Shown here piece after piece: positions 4,342-26,766 of a DNA stretch of 26,766 nt. The stretch covers positions 1 to 26,766 of the IMG/VR virus record IMGVR_UViG_3300017527_000841. One strand, given 5' to 3'. The position numbers and the translations under genes were made by a program. The stretch comes from a virus. Position 1 is the first letter of the stretch. Every line of letters starts with the position of its first letter. The notes below the pieces were generated by a model that saw only the letters and a program-made list of their open reading frames with translations, did no database searches and had not been told where the DNA came from.

Positions 4342-4566
4342 TTACACCTGGTGCACCGCAGGATTAACCGTCTTACCGGCATGATCGATAATCTGACCAC
4401 CCACCACTGCAACCCGGTCACCAGTGCGATACCTCCCGGTAGAGGCAGCCCGGTATTTACGGCCCCGGTCGTCAACCACTATCCACCATCCAGGCATGAT
4501 GGATGACACTATCTCGCCGGTGATCCGCTGATCAGGCAGCTGCGCATCAAAAAAATTAAATCCCAT
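4342..4566 (-). CDS. Small beta-barrel tail-tip protein (74 aa)
   Basis: The product reads ITGEIVSSIMPGWWIVVDDR, then GRKYRA, YRTGDRVAVVGGQII, a strand pattern like the OB or SH3-type small barrels found in phage baseplate and tail-tip proteins. It has no signal peptide or membrane segment. The gene overlaps the end of the 105-aa gene by 11 bases and has a GAGAGGG ribosome site. It closes the run of tail genes before the membrane-protein genes begin. The assignment is structural inference from the strand pattern, not a family match. Confidence 0.5.
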   Translation of the reverse strand: MGFNFFDAQLPDQRITGEIVSSIMPGWWIVVDDRGRKYRAASTGRYRTGDRVAVVGGQIIDHAGKTVNPAVHQV

Positions 4567-4873
4567 CTGCGACCCTCTCTATCAAAAGATTTATGTCCGC
4601 CGAAAAACTGTCTACGTCCCTATTGATAACGATGGCACAGCTTTGAACCATGCCACGCCATACCTGCTGCTCCGAGTCGGACACCTCAGCCATACCTCCC
4701 GGCCTGATAAATCCCTTATGCGGGCCGGTGGAAGAAACAAGTTCACGGGCTGAACAGTTGGCATCAATTTCGTTTCTGCCCCGCTCGTCGGCAACTGGGA
4801 TGGTGGTGATCAATGGGTCAGATATGTTCGGCCCCTGCTTGTCGGCAGGTGCCCTTTCAACTATGTGGATCAT
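4556..4873 (-). CDS. Small tail-region protein of unknown function (105 aa)
   Basis: A soluble protein starting MIHIVERAPADKQGPNISDP and ending in a helix (DINLLIERVADGI). It is acidic, with no membrane segment and no recognised motif. The ATG overlaps the stop of the 169-aa gene (ATGA) and the gene overlaps the next by 11 bases, so it belongs to the tail-tip operon. A minor tail or chaperone role is inferred from position only. Confidence 0.5.
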   Translation of the reverse strand: MIHIVERAPADKQGPNISDPLITTIPVADERGRNEIDANCSARELVSSTGPHKGFIRPGGMAEVSDSEQQVWRGMVQSCAIVINRDVDSFSADINLLIERVADGI

Positions 4874-5379
4874 ACGGCCTCCATATATACAACCACAAGT
4901 ATCGGATATGTTTCATCTTCTTCAAGGGTTAGGGTTGGCGGGTTCAGCCGGTATGCCCGGCAGCGGATACTGTATGTCGCCTCACCTATGGCAGGCACCT
5001 GGCCTGCCGCCCTGATCTTGCGCCCATCCTGGACAATAGCCGGACTGTTGCCATACTCCTCAAAGTCCACATCACCATCCGGTATATGGCTCAACTCCTG
5101 GCTGTCATCGGTGTTGGTAAACTGCAGCTGCCTGGTTCGCGTCCTGCTCACCAGACTACCGGCGGACACGGACCCGGAACTGCACTCAACCCGGTCAATG
5201 CACAATTGTGTCTCATCGTAATGAACAACAAAACCGGGCGTGTCATCAGGGTTGAATGATGTTTTGATGTTGCCGGACGTATCAACGTTTACAGCATCAT
5301 CCAGCTCAACCACCGTAAACTGCTGATCGCTCGCAACAGACTCGCCAAACTCGACAACAATGGTGCCCTCAATACCCAT
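4870..5379 (-). CDS. Beta-rich tail-tip protein of unknown function (169 aa)
   Basis: The product is acidic and strand-rich, starting MGIEGTIVVEFGESVASDQQ, with repeated short Val/Ile/Thr strands and a C-terminal YPILVVVYMEAV. Two Cys lie near the middle (LCIDRVEC) and one later. There is no signal or membrane segment. Its start shares a base with the hub gene stop (TGATG), and its stop overlaps the next start (ATGA). In siphophage-like gene orders a gene directly after the hub often encodes a hub partner; that is the most likely role. Confidence 0.55.
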   Translation of the reverse strand: MGIEGTIVVEFGESVASDQQFTVVELDDAVNVDTSGNIKTSFNPDDTPGFVVHYDETQLCIDRVECSSGSVSAGSLVSRTRTRQLQFTNTDDSQELSHIPDGDVDFEEYGNSPAIVQDGRKIRAAGQVPAIGEATYSIRCRAYRLNPPTLTLEEDETYPILVVVYMEAV

Positions 5380-6974
5380 CAGTCAACCCCCTCTGCAACC
5401 AGCTGCACCTGCTCATCCTCGTGATCTGTTGCCAGGTATTTGCGGCATTTTGTCCGGTAACTGATTTTAAGCAGCGACTCACCGGTAACACTGGATTCAA
5501 GCGTACCGTCCTCCGCAAATGTGACCGTGCCCAGGTTGGTCTGCAGCCATTCAACCGCAACCCGTGCGTAGATCGGATATGAGGTGTTGCCGGTACCACT
5601 GATAAATTCTACCACCTCATCCTCAATCAGCCGCTCCTCGATGCCCAGCGGCTCAAGGTAGACCCAATCGCCTCCTGTGTGGCGCAGGGAGAAGTCATCG
5701 GCCCAGGGTGTTTGATACGCCCTGATATATTTTGTAGCAGAGGTGATCGCCTCCTCTTCCAGTCGCAACGAATCGTCACTGGTCAACTGGTCGGAGATCA
5801 AATAACGGTTGTAACCCGGCCTGTGATCGTAATTCTCACCGGTCGTGAAAAAATCAAGAGCATCGGACAGGTGGTGGTCAATGGCAGCCGTGGGCCACCT
5901 GTAGACTGCAATAGGATAAGCAGGCTCAATGGTCAGGGTGCCGTCCGGCTCTGTCTGGATAATTGCCCCGGCAGCCTGGGCAATGGTGCGGATAATGGCA
6001 AGCGGAGTCTGATCGGCAGGCATAAAGGTATCTGCCGGGATATGCCAGTCTACCGTATCCCAGTTAGTTGTGTATCCTGCAGCCAGCCCTGCCACAATAG
6101 CAGAGGCCATGCCGGACAGATCGCCGGTAAATGGCTCTGCATAAGGTGCGTCAAGCAGGGCTGTCTTTGATAACCCCTTAATCACATACTCTGCCGTGTT
6201 ATGCTCACGGTTGCGCTGTTTGGACTCGACAAAAAAGGTAAACACCACACTATCAACGGTGATGGTCAGATCATCAAGCACCCTGCAGCGCAGGTAATCA
6301 GCCTGGCCCGCCAGATGTACCTCGCAGGACATGCAGTACTGGTCACGGGTCGCCTCGATGTTGATATGGTAAAATTGCAGATCAAACTCGCCGTTGGTTC
6401 CATCAACTACAACCTGAGTGGTATAGGTGAGCATCTGACTCTCGCCGGACAGTAAGGAAAACGGCTGTATTAACTGCCGCCGGACAAGATCAGTACCCTG
6501 GAGGGAATACAGTTGCTCAGAGATAGCAACCAGCTCAGCACCGGCAATGGAATAGCGCTGTTCCAGGACTTTCTGCAAAAAATCAGGCAGGGCATAGGGT
6601 TGCTCAAGGGACGTGACAAGCCTGTACGCATCATCATACGGCTGTTCAAGCATGGTGCGCAGCTGGGCGGCATCGCCGTACCACTGCTCCAGCATCTTGA
6701 CCAGCGCAGGAGTATCACCGTAATACTGGGTCAGCAGCACCACCATTTTCAGCCCGTAGATTTGGACCAGGGTCTGCACCACCTCTACACCGGCTATGGT
6801 GTACAGCTGCTCCAGCAACCGTGTCACCATGTATGGTGTCAGATCATACGGCTGCTCAAGTATGGCCAGTACAGTAGTTGTCCCACTATCAGGGGTGGAG
6901 GCATCATGCCATGCGTTGCTGCTCCTGTTGATCCAGGCGCAGGCACCTGTATTTTTAAATGCTGCAGTGGCCAT
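5379..6974 (-). CDS. Tail hub protein with an N-terminal LEQxY repeat array
   Basis: The protein has 531 residues. Residues 38-172 hold ten copies of a 14-15 residue unit centred on L-E-Q-x-Y (Tyr/Phe at 43, 58, 73, 85, 99, 113, 127, 141, 156 and 172). From about 180 on, the sequence looks like the hub family of long tails (gp27 / Mu gpP type): strand-rich VVVDGTNGEFDLQFYHINIE, the FFVESKQRNREHNTAEYVIK segment, then AGAIIQTEPDGTLTIEPAYP, a typical hub domain. The hub closes the distal end of the tail and carries the tip. The start overlaps the upstream stop (TAATG) and has no separate ribosome site, so translation is coupled. The repeats are not part of the usual hub fold and probably form a helical or solenoid extension. 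Confidence 0.65.
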   Translation of the reverse strand: MATAAFKNTGACAWINRSSNAWHDASTPDSGTTTVLAILEQPYDLTPYMVTRLLEQLYTIAGVEVVQTLVQIYGLKMVVLLTQYYGDTPALVKMLEQWYGDAAQLRTMLEQPYDDAYRLVTSLEQPYALPDFLQKVLEQRYSIAGAELVAISEQLYSLQGTDLVRRQLIQPFSLLSGESQMLTYTTQVVVDGTNGEFDLQFYHINIEATRDQYCMSCEVHLAGQADYLRCRVLDDLTITVDSVVFTFFVESKQRNREHNTAEYVIKGLSKTALLDAPYAEPFTGDLSGMASAIVAGLAAGYTTNWDTVDWHIPADTFMPADQTPLAIIRTIAQAAGAIIQTEPDGTLTIEPAYPIAVYRWPTAAIDHHLSDALDFFTTGENYDHRPGYNRYLISDQLTSDDSLRLEEEAITSATKYIRAYQTPWADDFSLRHTGGDWVYLEPLGIEERLIEDEVVEFISGTGNTSYPIYARVAVEWLQTNLGTVTFAEDGTLESSVTGESLLKISYRTKCRKYLATDHEDEQVQLVAEGVD

Positions 6975-7713: not shown

Positions 7714-10107
7714 CTAAAAAGCCTTGGAAAAGCCTTTGCGATTTTGCCTGATTAAGCCTGCAGGGGTAAAACCGGGCATAAAATTCATGTTGTACGATCT
7801 GGGAATATTTGCAAACGATGGAATATGCCGGTCTGCAACACCACTTGAAGGCAGGGCAAACGTAATCAGCGCATCGGTGTTTGATTTGTGGGTTACTGCC
7901 AGCCAAGCTGCGGAACGGGCCACCTTGGAAACACGAAACTCATCTACAATCAGATTTCCGTAACACCCGTCAAAGCGGCCACCAACCCTGATAGGCACAC
8001 TGGATAAATCGGCCACGGTAACGGGGTTGGTAGCTGGATCAACCACACCATCACCATACAACGACATAGCCCCGCCACTGAGTACGGTAGCCATGTTCTG
8101 GAAGGCAGTTGTGGAGGGGACAATGGCAGAGTTGACAAAATCACCGCCAACAGAAATGCCATAAAAACTCCCTGCGGAATTAAGACCAAACTGGAGCGTG
8201 CCGGAGCTTGCATTACCGATAGTACCTATCATCTTGTAGGCTCCGACAGTACCCCACTTGACACTGGCCTCCATGGTCATTGCTGCTTCCAAGGCGGAAA
8301 AATCGTCCGAGCTACTGTCCAAATGGTCATCGCTGCCATCCAGATCAACACCCTTGCCTATCAGGCCATTAACCAGATCACCAGAGGTCATGGTGCCACT
8401 GGAGGTCAGGTCATAACTACCTGTGGAATCAAGCATTTGCGGAGCAGTGCCTGACGGGTCTTGAGCCATGTGAAGGACAGCCGCAAAGTTTGAATCCCAC
8501 ACGTTCTGTGCCGGGGTGTCCCCGGTGTCACCTATATATGTGTTGTTATCCGGCTGGGCAGAGTCGTAATACAGGTTGAGGACAGTAGCAGCAGATGCAG
8601 AGATAGAGGGAATTTTAATCCACAACTGGGCTGTCTCGTTTGCACCATCCCACCGCTCTATCTCGCAGTAACATTGGACTCCGGTATCACCGATTTCAAA
8701 GGCAAGTTGCTTCGGTGTATCTTCCCATACTACTGTGCCGGAGTTAACCGTGAAGTTGTCAACTAAAGCGGAACAAGCCGGGTTTGTCGCCCACGTACTT
8801 GTCCATATGTGTATATTAACGTCACTTGTCGTTACTGTTGCTGTCTGTTGTAATGTCCAGCTTGATCCATTCCAGTAATATAAATTTATTGTAGAGCCTG
8901 ATCTGACAATACGCAATTTACCGGACGTATCGGTAGTAGCAGCTGGGGTGCCGTTTGTAGGTGTCCCGGCAACATAAACGGCAGAACTGTAATAAGAGCT
9001 GGTTCCATCGCTATATATGAATACATAGCCCCTGTCATCGGTATCTTCATTTATCTCTATGCCGAACGCGCCTGCATTTCCGGCAGAAGTGAAACTTGAA
9101 AAATCCACTTGAACGTCAAGATTTCCACTAATTTTAAAGATAGTTTTAACTGCGTCATCAATAGAGTTGTCTCTTCTCACCCTTAAAGCATTACCCTGTA
9201 TTGTCGGTGTTCCGGCTTTAACCTCCCACAACCGTGTATCCGGAGCATCACCATCAGTGCCGGTGAAATTATCATCAACATCAGCTGGGGTCAGCTCGTC
9301 AAACACGGCAGAGGCATCAAAACTGGACTTACCGCTGGAGGTGCCAAGATTAATCAGCACCGGAAAGTCAGTCAGCGCACTGCCTACATCGGCTGCAGCA
9401 ATGGTCAGCTTGAGCTTATTATCCTCATCAAAGGGCAGAGAGTATGGCGCAGTGGGCGGAGTAAAATCAGCCGTCCAGCGGGCAATTCCTTTGGAAACTC
9501 GAAACTCGTCAATATAGCCAAGGAAATGTTGAGAGGTAAACAGTCCCAGCCCCCCTACGGTGAAAATTGTAGACGAATTTGCAATGGTTTCTCCAGTAAC
9601 ATCACCAGTTCCGTCTGCAGTTCCGTCTATGTATTGTGTGAGGGTATTACCGTTGCGGACAATGGCAACATGATGCCAGTTAGTGTCGGTAATTGTAGCT
9701 GTTGTTGTAGCAGTAACCGTGCCGCCACCGGACTTGGCAAAGATAGTGCGGAAAGTATCATCGGCCTGGAAAAGCGCATCAAGGCTTCTGCTTGAGCCTC
9801 CTGAGTCTGATTGCCCAAAAAATCTTTCAACAGCCCCACTTCGTGTTCTTCGCAACCAGAAATCAATAGTAAAATCACCGGAGCCAAAGTCCCAGTCAGC
9901 AGAGTCGGGAACAGACAGGTAATCACCCGTGCCGTCAAAATGTATTGATGTTCTGTTAAATTTCTTTTGATCTACCTCGTGGTGCGTATTGCCATTGACA
10001 GTAATCGTATGGCCGGAGCCGGAACGATCCGGAAAGGTGGCATTCCCATCAGCTGCATCGGAGTGGATCAGCAGTTTAGTATAGCTGTCATTACCCGATA
10101 AACTCAT
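7714..10107 (-). CDS. LamG/DUF2341 tail fibre, probable receptor-binding protein
   Basis: The start at 10107 (MSLSGNDSYTKLLIHSDAAD) overlaps the upstream stop as ATGA, giving 797 residues. The first concanavalin-like LamG domain covers about residues 10-215 (IHFDGTGDYLSVPDS; WHHVAIVRNG; GYIDEFRVSKGIARWTADF). A DUF2341 domain starts at about 230 (LTDFPVLINLG) and resumes at about 480 (KQLAFEIGDTG; EIERWDGANETAQLWIKIPS; LNLYYDSAQPDN). Between the halves is an extra jelly-roll-like domain of about 170 residues starting near DDNFTGTDGDAPDTRLW. A second LamG domain covers about 590-750 and ends VDEFRVSKVARSAAWLAVTH. These folds bind sugars or surface polymers, so this is the likely host-recognition fibre. 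Confidence 0.7.
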   Translation of the reverse strand: MSLSGNDSYTKLLIHSDAADGNATFPDRSGSGHTITVNGNTHHEVDQKKFNRTSIHFDGTGDYLSVPDSADWDFGSGDFTIDFWLRRTRSGAVERFFGQSDSGGSSRSLDALFQADDTFRTIFAKSGGGTVTATTTATITDTNWHHVAIVRNGNTLTQYIDGTADGTGDVTGETIANSSTIFTVGGLGLFTSQHFLGYIDEFRVSKGIARWTADFTPPTAPYSLPFDEDNKLKLTIAAADVGSALTDFPVLINLGTSSGKSSFDASAVFDELTPADVDDNFTGTDGDAPDTRLWEVKAGTPTIQGNALRVRRDNSIDDAVKTIFKISGNLDVQVDFSSFTSAGNAGAFGIEINEDTDDRGYVFIYSDGTSSYYSSAVYVAGTPTNGTPAATTDTSGKLRIVRSGSTINLYYWNGSSWTLQQTATVTTSDVNIHIWTSTWATNPACSALVDNFTVNSGTVVWEDTPKQLAFEIGDTGVQCYCEIERWDGANETAQLWIKIPSISASAATVLNLYYDSAQPDNNTYIGDTGDTPAQNVWDSNFAAVLHMAQDPSGTAPQMLDSTGSYDLTSSGTMTSGDLVNGLIGKGVDLDGSDDHLDSSSDDFSALEAAMTMEASVKWGTVGAYKMIGTIGNASSGTLQFGLNSAGSFYGISVGGDFVNSAIVPSTTAFQNMATVLSGGAMSLYGDGVVDPATNPVTVADLSSVPIRVGGRFDGCYGNLIVDEFRVSKVARSAAWLAVTHKSNTDALITFALPSSGVADRHIPSFANIPRSYNMNFMPGFTPAGLIRQNRKGFSKAF

Positions 10108-10403
10108 GCCACCACCCTGCTGTATCCGCATTTAAGGGAGCAACGGACAATTTTTAGGCCATCAATGCTCCACGGCCCCACAATGCGACCCACTTTACAT
10201 GAAGGGCAGTCGGGAAGAGCGGGTACCGGAGGCTGCACGGTTCTTCTTTTTTTCACTCTGCCAACCGTTCCAACCCGCTTGGTCAGGCTGCGTGACAATC
10301 GCTCTCGAACAAAACGCACATCTGATATACCTTCTGCCTCAAACTGGTTGAGCAGGGCAATGAACGATTGAATATCTTTTAAATTATAAGCACTTAAATT
10401 CAT
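10104..10403 (-). CDS. Zinc-ribbon protein (99 aa)
   Basis: From the ATG at 10403 the product starts MNLSAYNLKDIQSFIALLNQ. It has a helical N-terminal half, a basic link (RVKKRRTV) and a C-terminal zinc ribbon made of two Cys pairs: DCPSCKVGRIVG and, about 20 residues later, RCSLKCGYS. A Zn ribbon of this type may bind nucleic acid or stabilise a small structural protein. It lies between the Cys-rich tail protein and the fibre, with 1- and 4-base overlaps. An ATG at 10415 in the same frame is an alternative start. The role is unknown; a fibre chaperone or late regulator (Com/Ogr-like) are options. Confidence 0.55.
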   Translation of the reverse strand: MNLSAYNLKDIQSFIALLNQFEAEGISDVRFVRERLSRSLTKRVGTVGRVKKRRTVQPPVPALPDCPSCKVGRIVGPWSIDGLKIVRCSLKCGYSRVVA

Positions 10404-12445
10404 CAGCACACCCATTCATAATAGCCATAACTTACGGGAGTTAAGCAAGTTACATATTGATAGGTACCATTTTCAGGATCAAATATATAATCGTCCCTAA
10501 AAGCAATCATGTGACCTGAATTATTTGGACAGCCGGTTGAAGCTAAGTATTTCCAAGACATAAGAGCCACCATGCTTTTGAAATTAAGACAAAATTCAAG
10601 TGTGTTACCCACTGTACAGTTCCCATCTGGCCAGGGATTCGGCCTGCAGAGGTTTGGGTGATGGTCATATATTCGTTCTGTAATTTTATACTTTCCGTTG
10701 TCCATCTCAAAATCATGATAAGACGTGCCTACATACGCTGTAGCATCGCTCCCACATGGCGCAAGAGCCTTGTCAAGCTCTACCCAGTGTCCTTCTGTGC
10801 TACGAACATAACTGCTTACAGAACTGCAACCATCATCTATGCCCACGGCAGCAGCTCCACAGGCATCTGCATCTGCATGTATTTCTATTGATCTGCCGTT
10901 TACAATGCCGTCCCGTATAGTATGAGCGGCATCAAGCCAAAAACCATCACCACGCACGCTAACATTAAGTGGCAACGTGCCGCCGGTTACAAGAACTACC
11001 GCAAAACTACCAGGAGTAACAGTTACAGCGGAATTGTCATAATCCCAAAGCAGTTGCGACACCTCATCGCAGCAATCCTGCTGGCCAACGTCCTGCGTGG
11101 TGATTATCTCTCCGCATTTACCCTCCAGTGGGCCGACAGGGATTATCTTTGCGTTGTTCCCGTGGGCCTGCTTGATGTCCTGTGTCTGTTTCTCTGTCGG
11201 TGGTTGCCCAGTAAATGGTGCGTGGTGTTCCTCGCATAGTGGTAACGGGGTATCACCGAACAAATCACTCCACTCGTCACAGCATTTTTGCTCGTAAAAG
11301 GCGGGATCATTTACATCATCAACTCCGCAATCAATGTATTTTTCACCGCCAGCTTCCGCTTCGCCACTTAAAGTAGATCCTGTATTGTAACCTGGAGGAC
11401 AAGGTGTCGGCTCTTTTTCGGTTGCTGTACTTTTATCGCCACCACAGGCACATATGGTGTTATATTTGACATTTTTAAAACAAACTCTATTGCAGTACTC
11501 TAAACACTTGGATAAATAACTACTATCAGCATATCGCTCGTTACACTCTGCTATGCAGGCTTCACGAGTCCATTCTTCATCGTCACCTAAACCGGCATCG
11601 CCCTCAACGTGAGTTGAGCCTGCATATCTGCATATTGCAGCCGCCTCTTCCTCTTCCACCGACTCATCTGTTTCAGGCTTGCTTAAAACAAGCAGCTCGT
11701 ACATATAGTGATAAAAGGCCAGGCAGGCGCATTTGATATCCTTTACCTCATCCAGCTCATCGCCGTCCTCACTACCTGAGTACCAACCCTCACCCAGCCA
11801 CCCTTCAGGACTGGAGCCGGTTATTACCTCCGACTCAGTGTTTTCAATACCAGTCACATGGATACTTATCAGATCAAAAACGGTGACAAATTCAGCCCGT
11901 AACACCCCGGTAAAATTACCTTCCCAGTAGAACGTATTGCCGACCACATGAATATCAGGCCCATCAACACCCTGCCAGGCTGCAAACAGGTTCCGCACTA
12001 TGGGTGTATCCAAGGTAATGGATGACTGGTTTTCAATGTCCAGGGTTATGACTCGATCCTCTTCGGTACGAGCCGGGCCGCCGGTCACTGAACCGTTTGA
12101 CAGTACCAGTTTGTACACTTCACCCTGGTGAGAGCGGTACACCCGTATTTGCACATCGTATGCGCCTGGGTCACCCGCTTCCTCAAAAGCAGCAAGCGCA
12201 TCGCAGGTCGGCAGCGTGAGCAGGTCAAGCGCACGATCCCAGTCTGTGCCGTCCGGCTTTTCAGGTTCCGGCTGGGAATCTACTTCCCCGCAAATAGAGG
12301 TGTCATACAGCGAGTCAATAAATTCAGCCGCCTCGCCAACAGTCATCTGCCCGTCATCAGGCTCTACCAGCTCCATGCGCAGCCAGTACGGGTCAACCAG
12401 GCTCTTTCCAAGGCCGAAATTAATTGTCAGCGAATGTTCGGTCAT
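10403..12445 (-). CDS. Large Cys-rich tail protein, third member of the MTExxLTIxF set
   Basis: From the ATG at 12445 (ATGA overlap with the upstream stop) the protein has 680 residues and starts MTEHSLTINFGLGKSLVDPY. Residues 1-200 match the plan of the two genes before it: the MTExxLTIxF start and a mid segment HVVGNTFYWEGNFTGVLRAE. Then follows an acidic region and a dense Cys cluster at about 225-390 (KCACLAF; CIAECNERY; KCLEYCNRVC; TICACGG). The C-terminal half is strand-rich with scattered Cys (DCCDE, GCSSV, TCLT). I count about 29 Cys, mostly in pairs, unusual for a cytoplasmically assembled virion protein. There is no signal peptide. Metal binding, disulfide stabilisation after release, or surface adhesion are possible; no family is known to me. 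Confidence 0.6.
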   Translation of the reverse strand: MTEHSLTINFGLGKSLVDPYWLRMELVEPDDGQMTVGEAAEFIDSLYDTSICGEVDSQPEPEKPDGTDWDRALDLLTLPTCDALAAFEEAGDPGAYDVQIRVYRSHQGEVYKLVLSNGSVTGGPARTEEDRVITLDIENQSSITLDTPIVRNLFAAWQGVDGPDIHVVGNTFYWEGNFTGVLRAEFVTVFDLISIHVTGIENTESEVITGSSPEGWLGEGWYSGSEDGDELDEVKDIKCACLAFYHYMYELLVLSKPETDESVEEEEAAAICRYAGSTHVEGDAGLGDDEEWTREACIAECNERYADSSYLSKCLEYCNRVCFKNVKYNTICACGGDKSTATEKEPTPCPPGYNTGSTLSGEAEAGGEKYIDCGVDDVNDPAFYEQKCCDEWSDLFGDTPLPLCEEHHAPFTGQPPTEKQTQDIKQAHGNNAKIIPVGPLEGKCGEIITTQDVGQQDCCDEVSQLLWDYDNSAVTVTPGSFAVVLVTGGTLPLNVSVRGDGFWLDAAHTIRDGIVNGRSIEIHADADACGAAAVGIDDGCSSVSSYVRSTEGHWVELDKALAPCGSDATAYVGTSYHDFEMDNGKYKITERIYDHHPNLCRPNPWPDGNCTVGNTLEFCLNFKSMVALMSWKYLASTGCPNNSGHMIAFRDDYIFDPENGTYQYVTCLTPVSYGYYEWVC

Positions 12446-13488
12446 TTTTTGCCGCACCAGCTGTTCTCATCCTGTTCCTCTTCTATGGCTGCCAGCTCTA
12501 TGCCGGTACAGGAAGATATGTACACATTGACAATGGGGTCACCATCACCATTAATAGATCCGCACATATTAAAAATACTTTGATCGCCGTCAGCATTACT
12601 ACCATCACCGTCACATGCTTCAAGCAAGTCTTTGAGACATTGTGGTATTTCCATCCTCAGTGACTCGGATTGTTCCTCTCCATCGTCAAACCACTTTGCT
12701 ATCACCGTGACCTGCAGGTTGGTGATAGACAGCCCTGTCATGTTGATCGGCTCATTCGGCACTATTTCGTTTCCTTTGTTGCTCTCCCAGGTTTTAATGT
12801 CGGTAAACCCGTAATACTGATCCAAATAATCCTGGTAGCTGCCATACCCATCACCACCGGCCTCTATCCACTCTTCCTCTGTCGGCAGAGTACCATCAGG
12901 CTTGTTGGGTATGGTTTTAACCAGGCGTACATTAACTTCATGCTGGCCGCCTTTCTTTTTGCCTTTTATCCGCACTACGCCAAACACCGGCTTATCGACA
13001 CGCATGGTGGTCAACCCGTCCATAACCGGATCATCTAAGTCATCCACCACTTTGCCGTCTTTGTCATAACAGGGAGTCTCCCACCGGGCGCTGGTTACCT
13101 CGGTCAACATAAAATCGAACTCAATCGTGTCAGACAGTTCAAAGGTGGCAGAGAAGTCAACCGCCTTTTCAACCATTTTAGGTGGCGACACGTTTCCCAG
13201 TGATGCCCCGATTGTATGCGGCAAGGTAAGGCTGGACGGCCAGGAATAGAAATTAAACCAGGAGACAACGGAGTTACCGTCAATATAAGCCGGGCATTTA
13301 TCCGGCTTATATGTCCTGGCAGACAAACCTGATTTGGCACGGGCAACCATTTGCTTGAGGTCATACATGGTGACCGTTTTCTTTGATTCAGACTCCTTAA
13401 TCTGCTCCAAATGGACAAACCGCCGGTTAGCCGTGGCTGTTTCAGAGTCGCTATCTGTAAATGAGATAGTAAGAGCGGCCTCAGTCAT
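12442..13488 (-). CDS. Tail protein, second member of the MTExxLTIxF set
   Basis: I chose the ATG at 13488 because AGGAG lies five bases upstream and it restores the shared N-terminus MTEAALTISFTDSDSETATA; the frame extends ten codons further without support. The protein has 348 residues. Its middle (SARWETPCYDKDGKV, then KPVFGVVRIKGKKKG) matches the segment KAWIGRCYDNEGNI...KVYGSLRIRY of the gene before it. A long insert (WIEAGGDGYGSYQDYLDQYY) and a Cys-containing C-terminus follow. It overlaps the first member by 8 bases and the third by 4. It is probably a tail-tip or side-fibre structural protein. Confidence 0.6.
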   Translation of the reverse strand: MTEAALTISFTDSDSETATANRRFVHLEQIKESESKKTVTMYDLKQMVARAKSGLSARTYKPDKCPAYIDGNSVVSWFNFYSWPSSLTLPHTIGASLGNVSPPKMVEKAVDFSATFELSDTIEFDFMLTEVTSARWETPCYDKDGKVVDDLDDPVMDGLTTMRVDKPVFGVVRIKGKKKGGQHEVNVRLVKTIPNKPDGTLPTEEEWIEAGGDGYGSYQDYLDQYYGFTDIKTWESNKGNEIVPNEPINMTGLSITNLQVTVIAKWFDDGEEQSESLRMEIPQCLKDLLEACDGDGSNADGDQSIFNMCGSINGDGDPIVNVYISSCTGIELAAIEEEQDENSWCGKK

Positions 13489-14329
13489 CGCACTCCTCTT
13501 TGACGGAATCCCAGTCAACCGACTCGATTATCCTATCGTCTGTAATTTCCCTGCTGCAATAATCTTGGTCAATAAGCCGATCCGCTGTCACAGCAGCAGG
13601 GAATCTGTGACCGTCCGGGTTGCAGATATCAACGCCGGATATTCTCATAAAATTACCGTCATCGTCGTACCATGCACCGTTGCCGCACTCACCTTCAAGC
13701 TCCTCAAAGTTGGCCGGAGCCTCTATATCAGTCCATTCAACACCGCCGTCATAGACAGCGTAGGCAACCGACTGGTACGTGTTCTCAATGGCATTAAGCC
13801 GTTTGCTGACAATGACATGATAAGTATGCCTGATAGCCATATACCGGATGCGCAGACTGCCGTAGACTTTCTTGCTGAGTATAATTTTATTGCCAACAAT
13901 AGTTACTTCTGGCCTGATTGTTATGTTGCCTTCATTGTCATAACAACGCCCTATCCATGCCTTTGTTATAACGGCAAATATCGGATAGTCAGTCTCATGC
14001 TCAAGTTGCAATCCACATTGAATAATCTCCTCTCTAAATGGAACACCCAACGGCCCATGAGTTACCCTGCCGTGCGACACCTTGAACCGGTAGCTCATGT
14101 GCGGATTACCGGGATACACGTATACCGTGGCCCGGAACTCACCATTAAGCCCGCCGCAGTTTGCATTAGGCCAGCGACCACCGTATACAGCCGCCGATAC
14201 GGCAAGAATGGCCTGCATGTTGGTGGTTTTGCCGACATCCTTGCCCCACGGCTCCTGCTCGATTTTCAAATAGTTTTCAGGAGTAGCAGAGCTGTCGGAA
14301 AAAGGTATGGTTAAGCTGGCCTCAGTCAT
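13481..14329 (-). CDS. Tail protein, first member of the MTExxLTIxF set
   Basis: The protein has 282 residues and starts MTEASLTIPFSDSSATPENY. The pattern continues with beta-rich FRATVYVYPGNPHMSYRFKV, then the conserved mid segment ITKAWIGRCYDNEGNI and VYGSLRIRYMAIRHTYHVIV. The C-terminal third carries several Cys and acidic residues. There is no signal or membrane segment. The gene starts two bases after the stop of the 336-aa gene. With the next two genes it forms a tandem set in which the copies grow in size (282, 348, 680 residues). A role in the tail tip or fibre base is inferred from position. Confidence 0.6.
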   Translation of the reverse strand: MTEASLTIPFSDSSATPENYLKIEQEPWGKDVGKTTNMQAILAVSAAVYGGRWPNANCGGLNGEFRATVYVYPGNPHMSYRFKVSHGRVTHGPLGVPFREEIIQCGLQLEHETDYPIFAVITKAWIGRCYDNEGNITIRPEVTIVGNKIILSKKVYGSLRIRYMAIRHTYHVIVSKRLNAIENTYQSVAYAVYDGGVEWTDIEAPANFEELEGECGNGAWYDDDGNFMRISGVDICNPDGHRFPAAVTADRLIDQDYCSREITDDRIIESVDWDSVKEECDD

Positions 14330-14331
14330 GC

Positions 14332-15342
14332 TTACGCACTTTCTCCACTGAGCGCGGTTGTGTTTTTATTGCCTGCCAGGGATGACGCACCTGCCGGTAC
14401 AACCCGTTTTAAAATAAAAGGAGCTGCAGCAGGATGGGTCTGGAAAACAATGGTGTCGCCAGCCGCCCACGTACCGGCCCAGCCAGCAGACTCAAGGGTG
14501 AAATAGGGTTTGGAAAAATCAGCATTTGAAGGGGCAAAGTCACCGCCGGTTGTACCGGAGCCAATAGTGCCAAGTGAGTCGCCAACAACAGTAAAATTGG
14601 TTGCATCGGTAAAAGTCAGTGTCCAGGTTTCATCAACCGTACCGATATTGTCCAGCACAGGCTGGTAACTGCCCTCATCGTAGGTACCGCTACCCGCACA
14701 GGTTTCAACCCAGTTGTCAAATGCTGTTTCAATATCGCCTGGCGAGTACAGAGACATGGCCCGGCCACCACCGGCCACTGTATATGAGTTGGCAATGGTT
14801 TCATCAACCGTGACGGTTAAAACCAGGCCAGCCAGAGACGGGGTACCGTTCACAGTCAGTAGTTCCTCGTTGCCGGTTACCGACTCAGGATCGTCCATAT
14901 CAGTAAGCCTGATATTGGCACCGTCTGGGAAACAGTCTGCAAAGTCTGCATGAGGTAGCAGCAGGGCAAAGGTGGAGCCGCCTGCCGTTATATCTGCGTT
15001 TAAATTGGCACAGCCATATACAGTGCCGCTATATGATGCAAAAGTTGCCTGAGTGTCCCTCTGGGTGCCTGGAAACAGAATGATATAGTCTCCTGCTGCA
15101 GTCTCAATGTCGTTCCACAAATCAGGGGAAAGCAGTGTTTCGTCGGCATCGTTTGATACTTTGGCAAACAGTTTGCGGTACAAAGTAGAACCGGCATCAC
15201 GTTCAGCCTTGAGTACATGCGGCCATACATTGTTGACCACGCCTGAAATCGCCTCAACAGCCGACATGCGCCCGCCGTTGGTGGTGGTGGAACCGACCAC
15301 CTTCGATTTGTAAAATTCAAGTTCTGCCTGGAGAATGGTCAT
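14332..15342 (-). CDS. Conserved tail-tip protein downstream of the tape measure (336 aa)
   Basis: The protein starts MTILQAELEFYKSKVVGSTT and has an Arg/Ala-rich helical start, then VVNNVWPHVLKAERDAGSTL and YRKLFAKVSNDADETLLSPD, followed by a strand-rich, Gly/Thr-rich body. I recall similar N-termini in prophages, in genes near the tape measure, but no family name. It has a GAGG ribosome site. The gap upstream (15343-15483) holds no gene, only the purine/pyrimidine hairpin repeat. It probably forms part of the distal tail. Confidence 0.55.
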   Translation of the reverse strand: MTILQAELEFYKSKVVGSTTTNGGRMSAVEAISGVVNNVWPHVLKAERDAGSTLYRKLFAKVSNDADETLLSPDLWNDIETAAGDYIILFPGTQRDTQATFASYSGTVYGCANLNADITAGGSTFALLLPHADFADCFPDGANIRLTDMDDPESVTGNEELLTVNGTPSLAGLVLTVTVDETIANSYTVAGGGRAMSLYSPGDIETAFDNWVETCAGSGTYDEGSYQPVLDNIGTVDETWTLTFTDATNFTVVGDSLGTIGSGTTGGDFAPSNADFSKPYFTLESAGWAGTWAAGDTIVFQTHPAAAPFILKRVVPAGASSLAGNKNTTALSGESA

Positions 15343-15483: not shown

Positions 15484-15837
15484 TTAAACTTCAATCATAG
15501 TTATATCGCCAGAGTACCAGGCATCAGATCCGGGATTTGCGTGGTCACCGGTCGGCACAACCGGCGTGCCGGTGATCAACACGGAAAAGGTGCCGCGATC
15601 GTGGACCAGGGCAACGGCGCTACCTGCTGCAGCCAGGGCCTTGACCGCCTGGATCTCGGCCAGGGTAAAATGATTCTCTCCGGAGAGCGTCAGGGCACGG
15701 CCGCCAGCAATCGGCGCAACCTGGACCGCAGACTCACCTGTTACGGTGCGCCGCTGGTTGACAACCACGTCAGGAGCAGTCTCCAGCCCGGAGAGGATCA
15801 ATTCATCAGACAGGGTCACGGAGCCGAGTGTTGTCAT
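15484..15837 (-). CDS. Conserved tail protein after the tape measure, possible distal-tail protein (117 aa)
   Basis: The protein starts MTTLGSVTLSDELILSGLET, and its core includes NQRRTVTGESAVQVAPIAGG, then RALTLSGENHFTLAEIQAVK and SDAWYSGDITMIEV at the end. This pattern of a repeated GG-Arg core with a conserved Trp-Tyr C-terminus is common in phage tail genes that follow the tape measure; the product is likely a small distal-tail or tail-tip component. The ATG overlaps the tape-measure stop (ATGA). No formal family name is claimed. Confidence 0.6.
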   Translation of the reverse strand: MTTLGSVTLSDELILSGLETAPDVVVNQRRTVTGESAVQVAPIAGGRALTLSGENHFTLAEIQAVKALAAAGSAVALVHDRGTFSVLITGTPVVPTGDHANPGSDAWYSGDITMIEV

Positions 15838-18287
15838 GACGCCCTCAACCTGTGCTTACGCTGCAGTATCCGCACCACCGCATCTGCATCCGCCTGGCTG
15901 TTAACCTGGACGGCAGCCTGGTCACCGCTTTGACGATCATACAGGTTCAGCGTGATAGCTTGCCCACCGGCCCCGGCACCGACAGGCCCGCCGGTTGCAA
16001 AGCCGGGCAGGGCAGGGAGGCGCAGGTTATTCAGGGCATGGAAAATACCGGCACCGAAACGGGACACCGCTTCCTTACGGATAATATATTCACCGGCCTC
16101 AAGCAGGGCCGGGATGCGATCGCCCCCGCCGTAACCTGCCAGCCTGCCGCCTGCTGCAAAGCGCTGGATCATGCCGCCCCATCGTTTGCGCACCACCTCG
16201 TTTATATAAATGGTCACCTCGCGGTCACGGGTCAGGGCAACAATTCGCTGTTCTGAGGCATCAATGGCAGTCGTGGCGTCACGCTCCATCTGGTCCCAGA
16301 CCTTGCCCCACTCCCCGCCGGAATCCTCAATAACCTTGTTCAGATTTTCAGCCTGTTCAACAATGGTCTTTGCAGCCTGGCCCGCCTCGGTAAAGGCGTC
16401 GCCCAACTTCCAGTCCGACTTTTTATTAACCGCATCAGCGGCGGCCTCTGCTGCCGTTTTTTGAGCCTCAAGAATTTCAATGGCCAACTCACCGGTTTCT
16501 TTTACACCGGACATGGACTGTCTCAAAGCCTCCTGCGCCGAGACGGTAACCGTTTCCCCGGTCTTAACTTCTCTGTTCAGGTCTTTGTAGGCGTCCTTTG
16601 CGTCGTTGGCATTCTCTTTTGCTTCTTTAAACTTTTTGGCTGCAGTGTCACTGTCACCGACCTCAAGCGCCTTTTTGGCCTCGGCAAATGCGTATTTGGC
16701 GGCACGGGCATACTCTCCCGCTTCCGCTTTCCGATCCTGCCAGGCACTGGTATCAGACATACCGCCCCTGGCCATTTCCCGCAGCTCCTGGGCAAGGGAC
16801 CGCTCTTTACCTGCAATCTCATCCTGCAGCCGCTTAATCTCATCAACATATTTTTGATAAGCGGCCTTCATCTCATCGACGGCAACGGTCTGGGCCTGTT
16901 TCTGTACCTCGGCTGATTGGACTGTTGCCTGTGCCATCTCTCCGGCACCACGCACCCAGGACCCGGTCAGATCGTCATAGCGCAAGCGGCCATCTGCAAC
17001 CGCCTGGTCAAGCTCCTGCATGGAGGTGACCGTCACCCCGGTTGCCTGGCTGATCTCTTTAAATTTTGCGGCAACTCTGCCAGAGTATTGTTCCAGATCA
17101 CGGGTTGACTCTGCAATCCCGGCCCAGTGCTTGCGCATGGTCAACCATTCTCCTGCCTTATAACCTGCGTACAGGGCAGCTAATGAGGCGGTAATCGTGG
17201 TCAACGAAGCGGCAAACACCCTGGCCGCGACAGCGGTACTGGTCATGTTTGTGCGCAACCCGGCAAGCCAGGGAATCATCTTGACGCCGGTCATGGTGAT
17301 CATAGCGGCATTGGTGGCTTTTGTGTAGATCAGCAGGGTGGACAGCGCCTTGGCGGCAACGCCCATGATAATGGACCACTTGCCCAGCCAGAGGATAAGG
17401 TCCCGGTTGGCTGCCACAAATTCAATCACCTTGGCCGCACCGGATGCTATCTTTGAGGCAAAGTCGCCCAATCCGTCCGCGTTTTCATTCAATACGGCTG
17501 CAACCTGCACCAGGGATGCAACAAGGTCCTCATTCTGGCCGATACCGTCACTCACCGTCTTTTTGATCAGCGCAATGGCGCCGGCATAGGTTTCAACAGA
17601 CTCGGCCGCTTTGCCCTGCAGCGGGATGGCCTGCTCTAAAAACACCTGGTAGCGGACCTGTGCTTTTTCCAGGTCGGACAAGTCTTTCCAGGCACCCTGC
17701 ATAGCGCCCCTGGCTTCGTACCAGGATTTGACAAAAGTCTCATTCAGGGTGAGCCCCAGATATTCCGACGCCTCAGCCTCACCGCGCAGGGCAGCGGTTA
17801 CTCGCTCAATCCCGCCGACAAGATCCGTCTTGCCTGCAGACAGATCCCCAGACAAGGCAATGATTTTTTCCATCTGTTCGGCGGACATGCCGAGCCGCTT
17901 GGTCATGTCAACGGTGCGAGCTGTTGCCGCCTGCAGGTCAGACTTGGAATAGATGCGCAGCTTTTCCGACAACCGCTCAATGGTATCCTGCCACCGCTCC
18001 AGGCTGCCCACCTCAAACTGGCGGTTTGCCGCCTTGAGGCTGGACTCCAGGGCATAGGCCGACTTACTGGCATTTTCCAGCAGGGTGCCAACCTTGCCCA
18101 CGGCCTGCAGACCGACAAAGGCACCGGCCAGGCCGACCAGCTGGTTACGCATGGAGGCAGCCAGCCTGTTGGAGTTGCCAAGTGTCTTGTTAAAGGTCGC
18201 CAGGCCGCGTTGAGCCTTGTTCATGCCCGCGGCAAAACCCTTGCCGTCGGCGGTGAGCAGGACTTCTATGGTGGTCTTTTTAGCCAT
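15834..18287 (-). CDS. Tail tape measure protein
   Basis: The protein has 817 residues, helical through most of its length. The N-terminus (KGFAAGMNKAQRGLATFNKT) is typical of the family. Hydrophobic segments lie at about residues 295-325 and 345-375 (LILWLGKWSIIMGVAAKALS; VAARVFAASLTTITASLAAL). A long charged coiled-coil region rich in Ala, Lys and Glu follows. The C-terminus has the classic glycine block (GGRLAGYGGGDRIPALLEAG, EYIIRKEAVSRFG, FATGG). It sets tail length and is later ejected. At roughly 0.15 nm per residue the tail would be about 120 nm. The ATG has almost no ribosome site; a 17-codon mini-ORF from the chaperone gene runs over its start. Confidence 0.9.
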   Translation of the reverse strand: MAKKTTIEVLLTADGKGFAAGMNKAQRGLATFNKTLGNSNRLAASMRNQLVGLAGAFVGLQAVGKVGTLLENASKSAYALESSLKAANRQFEVGSLERWQDTIERLSEKLRIYSKSDLQAATARTVDMTKRLGMSAEQMEKIIALSGDLSAGKTDLVGGIERVTAALRGEAEASEYLGLTLNETFVKSWYEARGAMQGAWKDLSDLEKAQVRYQVFLEQAIPLQGKAAESVETYAGAIALIKKTVSDGIGQNEDLVASLVQVAAVLNENADGLGDFASKIASGAAKVIEFVAANRDLILWLGKWSIIMGVAAKALSTLLIYTKATNAAMITMTGVKMIPWLAGLRTNMTSTAVAARVFAASLTTITASLAALYAGYKAGEWLTMRKHWAGIAESTRDLEQYSGRVAAKFKEISQATGVTVTSMQELDQAVADGRLRYDDLTGSWVRGAGEMAQATVQSAEVQKQAQTVAVDEMKAAYQKYVDEIKRLQDEIAGKERSLAQELREMARGGMSDTSAWQDRKAEAGEYARAAKYAFAEAKKALEVGDSDTAAKKFKEAKENANDAKDAYKDLNREVKTGETVTVSAQEALRQSMSGVKETGELAIEILEAQKTAAEAAADAVNKKSDWKLGDAFTEAGQAAKTIVEQAENLNKVIEDSGGEWGKVWDQMERDATTAIDASEQRIVALTRDREVTIYINEVVRKRWGGMIQRFAAGGRLAGYGGGDRIPALLEAGEYIIRKEAVSRFGAGIFHALNNLRLPALPGFATGGPVGAGAGGQAITLNLYDRQSGDQAAVQVNSQADADAVVRILQRKHRLRAS

Positions 18288-24932: not shown

Positions 24933-25781
24933 TTAGCAAGCCTCAATTCTCTTGGTTGCTATCTGGTAATATTTTTCGTCTATCTCGCAGCCTATGAATT
25001 TACGGCCAAGTAATTTGGCCATTTTCCCGGTCGTGCCACTCCCCATGAAAGGGTCAAAAACAGTGTCACCTTCGTTGCTCCATGAAATTATGTGGTCACT
25101 GGCTAACTGTTCGGGGAATGTTGCAGGGTGTTTTGTGTGTTCACCCCTGCTTTGGTTCCATATCTTCCAAACATTGCCACGCAATGAAAACTCAGGGCAT
25201 ACATTACCAAGCCCTGTCCTAGTCTTTTGACCACCTTCTTTTGTCCTGTCGTGTCCTGTTACCTTCCGTCCAGCAGATACATTCTTATGGTCTTTTATCC
25301 CATTAAACGTGCTTGGTTTCCCCTTGCTGAACACGTACATATATTCCATTTTATTGTTGTATCTCACGCTCTCAGGAAAGGCCACCACGCCTTTTTCATA
25401 TATCATAGTGTCATGGAGATTAAATCCCATTTTCTTAAATGCCAATGCCTGTTCAAAACTGGACCCGGTTTCACTTCCCTTTATCGTTGCATCACCAACA
25501 ACCCAAACCACAACGCCACCAGGCTTTGTCACTCGCCACAATCCAGATGCAATAGCAGAAAACTCTGCCCATCCCCATGTTGAACTATTGTTGTACGTTC
25601 TCAAATTGTCGTATGGTGGACTTGTCATGGTTAAATCAATGCTATCAGCTTCAATAAAATCAAAGAGATATTTTCGGCAATCCCCATGCAGGAGTAACGG
25701 CATGCTAACAAGGCGCTGCACGTTGACCGCCTGGGGCTGCGGGTTTTCGGAGTTTTGTTTTTCAAATAATGGTTGTTGCAT
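24933..25781 (-). CDS. DNA methyltransferase, beta class, TSPPY type
   Basis: The start at 25781 (MQQPLFEKQNSENPQ) is preceded by GAGGTG at normal distance; a longer frame to 25853 lacks support and overlaps the gene before it. The protein has 282 residues. Motif IV TSPPY is at 53-57 and the S-adenosylmethionine motif DPFMGSG near 243-249, giving the beta order (IV, target region, X, I). SPPY is usual for N4-cytosine and some N6-adenine methylases; the base cannot be called. LGNVCPEFSLRGNVWKI lies in the target region. There is no restriction partner, so the role is probably protection of phage DNA or marking for packaging. Confidence 0.8.
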   Translation of the reverse strand: MQQPLFEKQNSENPQPQAVNVQRLVSMPLLLHGDCRKYLFDFIEADSIDLTMTSPPYDNLRTYNNSSTWGWAEFSAIASGLWRVTKPGGVVVWVVGDATIKGSETGSSFEQALAFKKMGFNLHDTMIYEKGVVAFPESVRYNNKMEYMYVFSKGKPSTFNGIKDHKNVSAGRKVTGHDRTKEGGQKTRTGLGNVCPEFSLRGNVWKIWNQSRGEHTKHPATFPEQLASDHIISWSNEGDTVFDPFMGSGTTGKMAKLLGRKFIGCEIDEKYYQIATKRIEAC

Positions 25782-25836
25782 TTTCACCTCTTGTATTTCA
25801 AATTCGGCGGCAAGTGAGCTAAATCGTTGTATGGAC

Positions 25837-26625
25837 TCATAGCCCACATTCACACGGGGGGTAGTCCATGTCTGGCCAGAGATTACCCTGTTTTTCCATC
25901 AACACTGCGTCAATCGGTTTTTCTTTGATCCCGAAAGGCCTTCCTATTTTCTCGGAAACTCGTTTTTCCAGAGTTCTCAATTTACAAATCAAATCAGGAT
26001 GCTCCCGCCTCAAAATTCGCAACTGAGCATCGGACTGATATGGGCAAAACCAACAGCCTGATTTCCTGGGCACCGGCAAACCATGATCCGCAATCAATTT
26101 TTTACAGCCCTCACGGTTTATCCCGTTTTCGATTAACACCCATCTATGTTCAACACCCTGTTTTGTTGATATTTTGGCTCGTTTTGCCTCTCCGGCATCA
26201 ATGCCGATGTGCATCCAGCATGGCTTATCCACATATTTATGCACAACTCGCACTTTAAATCTGTCAGTACACCACCGGTGCTTCACGCTCGGAACTATCT
26301 TTTTAAAATGGCAATAATCATACAGGTTGTCAAAACGCTCTCCCTCCCGGGTGCCAGCGTCGGGCTTGAGAATTGTAACAGGGTATTTGTCACAAAACAG
26401 TTTCACATATTCTGCTGTTTCAGGACTATCGGCTCCATGGTCAACATAAATTGCCTCAAACTCCACTCCCTGATCCAGCAGTAAAAGATAAAGAGCAACA
26501 GAATTAACACCAAACCCCATGGACAAATAGTGCTTAACTGGCACACCGTCCATACAACAAGTCGGCTCACGCTGACCCGCAGACTGTGCGGGTCTTTGGT
26601 CTTCGGTTTTAGTGCTTTTGTTCAT
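25837..26625 (-). CDS. PAPS-reductase-like PP-loop protein
   Basis: From ATG at 26625 the product has 262 residues. The PP-loop (SMGFGVNSVAL) at 35-45 binds ATP or a nucleotide, followed by AIYVDHGADSPET with the Asp-His-Gly motif. C119 (RWCTDRFK) is the usual PAPS-reductase Cys, and C191/C194 (SGCWFCPYQ) with C258/C260 suggest a Zn or iron-sulfur site. Phage genomes often carry such proteins next to DNA methyltransferases; substrates are unknown, and a DNA thio-modification role (as in DndC) is one hypothesis. A TTG start at 26682 would add 19 residues but has no ribosome site. Confidence 0.7.
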   Translation of the reverse strand: MNKSTKTEDQRPAQSAGQREPTCCMDGVPVKHYLSMGFGVNSVALYLLLLDQGVEFEAIYVDHGADSPETAEYVKLFCDKYPVTILKPDAGTREGERFDNLYDYCHFKKIVPSVKHRWCTDRFKVRVVHKYVDKPCWMHIGIDAGEAKRAKISTKQGVEHRWVLIENGINREGCKKLIADHGLPVPRKSGCWFCPYQSDAQLRILRREHPDLICKLRTLEKRVSEKIGRPFGIKEKPIDAVLMEKQGNLWPDMDYPPCECGL

Positions 26626-26668
26626 CAATCTTCTCGTATTTTCCACGGCGGGCAGGTAGCCTGTATCG

Positions 26669-26766
26669 TTATGTGCCGACAAGATTCACGGCCCATGCCA
26701 TCAGGCCACGTTTCTTGTTGCCGCCATTAATACGCACAAGTTGCCTACCCATCTCGCTCTCTCGCC
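26669..26766 (-). CDS. 3' part or very small gene at the right edge
   Basis: A frame is open from the window edge to a TAA at 26671-26669. It reads RESEMGRQLVRINGGNKKRG and ends AWAVNLVGT. An ATG lies inside it after a GAGAGAG stretch, so it may instead be a 27-residue gene. The residues do not identify a family. If it is the end of a longer gene, that gene would lie in the same transcription unit as the PAPS-like protein. Confidence 0.35.
   Translation of the reverse strand, partial: RESEMGRQLVRINGGNKKRGLMAWAVNLVGT

Follow-up and report, generated by a model that had tools for sequence, protein, structure and literature searches.

A probable tandem expansion of one tail-tip domain in the late region of an uncultivated siphovirus-like genome

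Three consecutive genes in the late region of an uncultivated virus, here called A, B and C, probably arose long ago as tandem duplicates of one structural domain of the tail tip and have since diverged; a fourth gene, D, and the end of the hub protein carry further copies, and the tip would be built from repeats. The window, by which we mean the whole stretch of DNA analysed, comprises 26,766 nt of the contig IMGVR_UViG_3300017527_000841 (positions 1 to 26,766). Its late region is siphovirus-like and lies on the minus strand, where head genes are followed by the tape measure gene, genes for proteins of 117 and 336 aa, and then A, B and C; C is followed by a small protein of 103 aa that resembles a zinc ribbon, then by the LamG and hub-like proteins, D (169 aa) and a protein of 105 aa. 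The initial annotation had placed A, B and C correctly, with sizes of 282, 348 and 680 aa, and had described them as adjacent and coupled; neighbouring reading frames share 4-8 bases. The features are as follows.

15834..18287, minus strand: tail tape measure protein, 817 aa
15484..15837, minus strand: 117 aa protein between the tape measure and the 336 aa protein, phrog_4408, possibly Dit-like
14332..15342, minus strand: 336 aa tail protein upstream of A, phrog_6128 / phrog_24675 type
13481..14329, minus strand: gene A, 282 aa; domain at about residues 1-205, then a unique C-terminal part
12442..13488, minus strand: gene B, 348 aa from ATG; domain at about residues 1-195, then a unique C-terminal part
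10403..12445, minus strand: gene C, 680 aa from ATG; domain at about residues 1-210, then a Cys-rich and C-terminal extension
11051..11740, minus strand: Cys-rich region of C, residues 236-465, with 18 Cys and CxC and CC pairs
10766..11050, minus strand: residues 466-560 of C, a possible Ig-like beta domain with the motif VTGG..P...G.G...D.CS kept in orthologues
10104..10415, minus strand: small zinc-ribbon-like protein (CPSC...CSLKCG), 103 aa, overlapping the end of C
7714..10131, minus strand: LamG (concanavalin-like) tail protein, 805 aa
5379..6974, minus strand: hub-like tail protein of 531 aa, orthologous to VHS1065 and of the type phrog_24698 / phrog_6079 ('tail protein')
5436..5624, minus strand: C-terminal part of the hub protein, a weaker domain copy (E 2.6e-6; E 4e-5 in a second search)
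4870..5379, minus strand: gene D, 169 aa, domain copy downstream of the hub, orthologue of VHS1066
4556..4873, minus strand: protein of 105 aa that aligns with the C-terminal portion of the phrog_6079 profile (512-589)

Homology of A, B and C

The resemblance of the three genes is real and beyond chance. Their N-termini read MTEASLTIPF, MTEAALTISF and MTEHSLTINF, as first described, and the likeness runs well past these ten residues, a point set beforehand as a test: pairwise BLASTP aligned A with B over 175 columns (E 5e-6) and A with C over 133 columns (E 8e-7). Profiles of three sequences per gene (the window and two relatives) aligned A with B at E 6e-11 and A with C at E 6e-9, scoring 80 and 65 where the column-shuffle null averaged about 15, and in each case 0 of 120 column shuffles did as well. 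The direct profile comparison of B with C was not significant (E 0.037, 2 of 120 shuffles as good), so that these two genes are linked through A. Additionally, an HMM of A alone, run with HMMER over 1005 ORFs, retrieved B in all three viruses (E 7.6e-12, in the L002 virus, to 2.8e-5) and C with an E of 1.3e-6 in the L002 virus and 0.05 in the window, with few decoys and, more weakly, Vibrio homologues among its other matches.

What the three proteins have in common is an N-terminal domain of about 200 residues. Their C-terminal parts, and that of the Vibrio protein VHS1064, show no significant mutual similarity; PINMTGLSI in B resembles PVDVDGVQIE by eye, but the shared C-terminal part that this suggested was not significant when tested. 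Of the mid segment first reported as common to all three, the motif W-x3-CYD...V[YF]G is found in A and B but not in C, where the aligned place reads AWQGVDG...FTGVLRA.

Structure prediction gave a confident model for residues ~91-169 of A only (AlphaFold, pLDDT 70-93), which form a beta-sandwich-like core; the model of C was unusable (pLDDT 31). Separate, unrelated folds had been named as the other outcome that would speak against the proposal, and no sign of them appeared in the shared part. A Foldseek search of viral models with this core returned proteins of 169, 171, 201, 297, 305, 430 and 431 aa, lengths equal or near to those of VHS1066, PH108-3-201, VHS1064 and the hubs, to which we liken them by length alone. 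No PDB structure stood clear of background, the best being a neck protein of phage 812 with Z 7.6. The middling matches of the core to many beta-sandwiches are what one would expect if the genes had converged on a generic beta-sandwich and a similar N-terminal strand rather than descended from one ancestor, a reading we find barely credible, given that the profiles retrieve hardly any of the 1005 ORFs other than the copies, that the genes hold the same slot in related phages, and that shuffles never reach the A-B and A-C scores.

The triple set also occurs in two other uncultivated viruses: whole and in the order A-B-C, it is present in IMGVR_UViG_3300003332_000067 (L002) and IMGVR_UViG_3300031697_000459 (L004), whose proteins are 34-42% identical to those of the window. 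No credible sequence match to A, B or C was found among INPHARED phages, where the lone weak match, in Vibrio phage GR11A, was rejected as a head-morphogenesis type protein (phrog_1114). Two scans of genome contigs returned no relative, and the PDB held no credible sequence relative.

Further copies of the domain and the VHS1/SIO-2-like phages

Using the 336 aa protein and the hub as links, we traced the module to VHS1/SIO-2-like Vibrio siphoviruses, in which the order is tape measure, a ~128 aa protein, a ~330 aa protein, VHS1064, VHS1065 (the hub), VHS1066 and a ~101 aa protein. The order, running from the tape measure through phrog_4408 and a phrog_24675 type protein to the A-B-C place and the hub, is the same in the window and in the VHS1-like phages. 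Members of the VHS1064 / VPEG_00095 family (phrog_22251) lie in this slot, preceded by the ~330 aa tail protein and followed by the hub, and share with A, B and C the N-terminal domain of ~200 aa with the same short N-terminal strand. They differ in being single, with one gene per slot where the window has three; in their 292-309 aa they carry 0-2 Cys and lack the long extension of C, and nothing corresponding to their C-terminal GVQIERA segment could be detected in A, B and C (against the C-terminus of B, 29 of 100 shuffles were as good). A matched the VHS1064 profile with E 6e-4 (0 of 120 shuffles) and B more weakly (E 0.007-0.02); the direct comparison with C was not significant. None of the three matched the phrog_22251 profile, and we therefore regard them as homologues of the VHS1064 family rather than members.

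The domain also recurs on the other side of the hub. The VHS1066 / VPEG_00093 family (phrog_24905) consists of the same domain alone, about 170 aa without a large extension, and lies after the hub, unlike A, B and C; it is orthologous to D. D and its orthologues matched the Vibrio VHS1066 profile over nearly their full length (E 7.7e-9), and D and its two orthologues had no PHROG match up to E 1, which makes D a VHS1066 orthologue that the current PHROG does not reach. Profile comparisons further joined VHS1064 with VHS1066 (1.7e-6), the D family with A (3e-8) and VHS1066 with C (9e-6). The hubs of the three viruses also matched the VHS1066 profile (E 3.7e-6; 0 of 60 shuffles in the all-hub comparison). 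Aligned jointly, the copies show S-L-x-I-x-F in the N-terminal strand, a turn with SxG, a strand resembling YPI, the motif W-x-G, and V-[YF]-G in a further strand. The tail tip thus appears, from these profile comparisons, to hold five copies of one undescribed domain, in A, B, C, D and the C-terminus of the hub. The three genes first described as related are indeed homologous, and the set is wider than had been proposed, with D (4870-5379) and the C-terminus of the hub protein (5379-6974) as further copies. The initial statement that no described family has this plan also needs qualification, as VHS1064 belongs to phrog_22251 and VHS1066 to phrog_24905; both families are unnamed and of unknown function. 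Several PHROGs of unknown function that look unrelated (22251, 24905 and the end of 24698) would thereby join three orphan genes in one tail-tip domain family.

The presence of the domain within the hub protein itself points to a structural role, and A, B and C have sizes and a beta content that fit structural proteins. Both observations make it very unlikely that the three genes encode assembly factors or tail-tip chaperones outside the virion, an alternative that could draw on the small overlapping zinc-ribbon-like gene, which suggests accessory functions in this segment, and on the lack of direct virion evidence: we found no virion proteomics or structure of any member of the domain family. 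In each of the three viruses a small zinc-ribbon-like protein (CPxC...C..C) is encoded by a gene that overlaps the end of C or follows it (window 10104-10415, L002 11687-12001, L004 ~11950-12180).

The hub of the window (5379-6974) is an orthologue of the hub type phrog_6079 / phrog_24698, which includes Stenotrophomonas S1 gp21 and VHS1065. Successive pieces of the phrog_6079 profile match the hub of 531 aa (289-491) and the 105 aa protein (512-589), so that D sits between separated hub parts; the hub looks split in the window (4556-6974), with the 105 aa protein as its detached end. The LamG protein has its own gene in the window (7714-10131) and is fused to the hub in both relatives (L002 11998-14250, L004 12175-15402). 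In S1, LPPA36 and Shewanella 1/44 the A-B-C slot is filled by another protein of ~335 aa (phrog_9600), which we set aside as a different family.

Duplication history and the extension of C

A tree of 185 alignment columns recovered one clade for each of A, B, C and D (95-100); in it A joined B (95/93), D joined VHS1066 (100/99), and A, B and C grouped with VHS1064 opposite D (100/99), a split that gap-rich D columns may favour. The AU test gave p 0.48 for C splitting before versus after the VHS1064 lineage. Since A, B and C are each an orthologue clade, the duplications are older than the split of the three viruses. The homologous N-terminal domain and the single VHS1064 gene in the slot support the interpretation originally offered, in-place tandem duplication followed by domain gain in a tail-tip module, as the best reading.

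C contains exactly 29 Cys ('about 29' at first count), of which about 17 are invariant across the three orthologues. The last gene is thus Cys-rich as described, but Cys conservation extends to A and B, with 6 and 7 invariant residues respectively, and each protein has one Cys after the N-terminal helix region (A 58, B 65, C 52). The Cys-rich region of C had no Pfam or PHROG match. The segment that follows it is possibly Ig-like, judging by eye and by predicted strands of low confidence. Across the three viruses C is poorly conserved only in its last ~110 residues. The single VHS1064 gene lacks a long Cys-rich extension, and that of C therefore looks like a gain. The trio would then illustrate clearly how a set of tip genes grew to three copies ahead of the divergence of three viruses, one copy gaining a new Cys-rich domain. 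Matches of the C profile to designed TIM-barrels in the PDB were judged spurious.

Conserved Cys at the tail tip are also found in the Fe-S-bearing gpL of lambda and in GTA hub proteins. These resemble A, B and C in their tail-tip place and conserved Cys, a likeness that we treat as a lead only; searches of Pfam, PHROG and PDB sequences gave no match that would identify A, B or C as gpL-like Fe-S tail-tip proteins.

N-terminal strands and a proposed tip architecture

In A, B and C, the ten N-terminal residues behave differently from the remainder of the domain. Identity in these residues is 0.59 within a virus versus 0.35 between orthologues, and in the rest of the domain the relation is reversed (0.17 versus 0.42). 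By exact permutation, in a test of 36 permutations covering ten residues only, the first ten residues ranked 1/36; the rest of the domain ranked 20/36. The ten residues end in F in the window and in L in the L002 (8001-9730) and L004 (8001-9880) viruses. The first 12 bases of A and B are identical. Recent gene conversion of the A-C N-termini was considered and rejected as unlikely, since every shared variable codon in the window differs synonymously. The within-virus likeness hints at a common docking partner, the simplest reading of these few data.

We propose that a domain of ~200 residues, mostly beta strands and present once in the same slot in VHS1/SIO-2-like siphoviruses, serves as a structural tier of the tail tip, a function that gene order and homology suggest for A, B and C. 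The copies would form stacked or side-by-side tiers between the 117 and 336 aa proteins and the hub, with a genome-specific N-terminal strand by which every copy docks on one and the same partner. Each C-terminal part would have its own specialised role, and C may expose its Cys-rich and Ig-like extension, stabilised by disulfides or bound metal. In a bolder form, which we consider rather unlikely, A, B, C, D and the hub C-terminus would be paralogous subunits in quasi-equivalent positions of a pseudo-symmetric tip grown by duplication, and the N-terminal strands of A, B and C would co-evolve on the same docking partner. If true, this co-evolution would allow a direct test of how duplicated subunits keep one docking site.

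Alternatively, A, B and C could be alternative or co-displayed receptor-binding proteins, held by a common N-terminal anchor and binding different host structures through their C-terminal parts. The N-terminal domain alone is common and the C-terminal parts are unrelated, the ten N-terminal residues agree among the three proteins of any one virus, C bears a large extension, and R21Y, a phage of the VHS1-like group, is reported to lack an annotated tail fibre (PMC10671443). We nevertheless judge this quite improbable, as the domain also lies inside the hub and in D, and the adjoining LamG protein is a better adhesin candidate. Adhesins are usually hypervariable, but the C-terminal parts of A and B are not, and align along their length in the three viruses with invariant Cys.

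Outside the tail module, putative DNA methyltransferase-like and PAPS-reductase-like genes, named by eye, adjoin at 24933-26682, upstream of the portal region.
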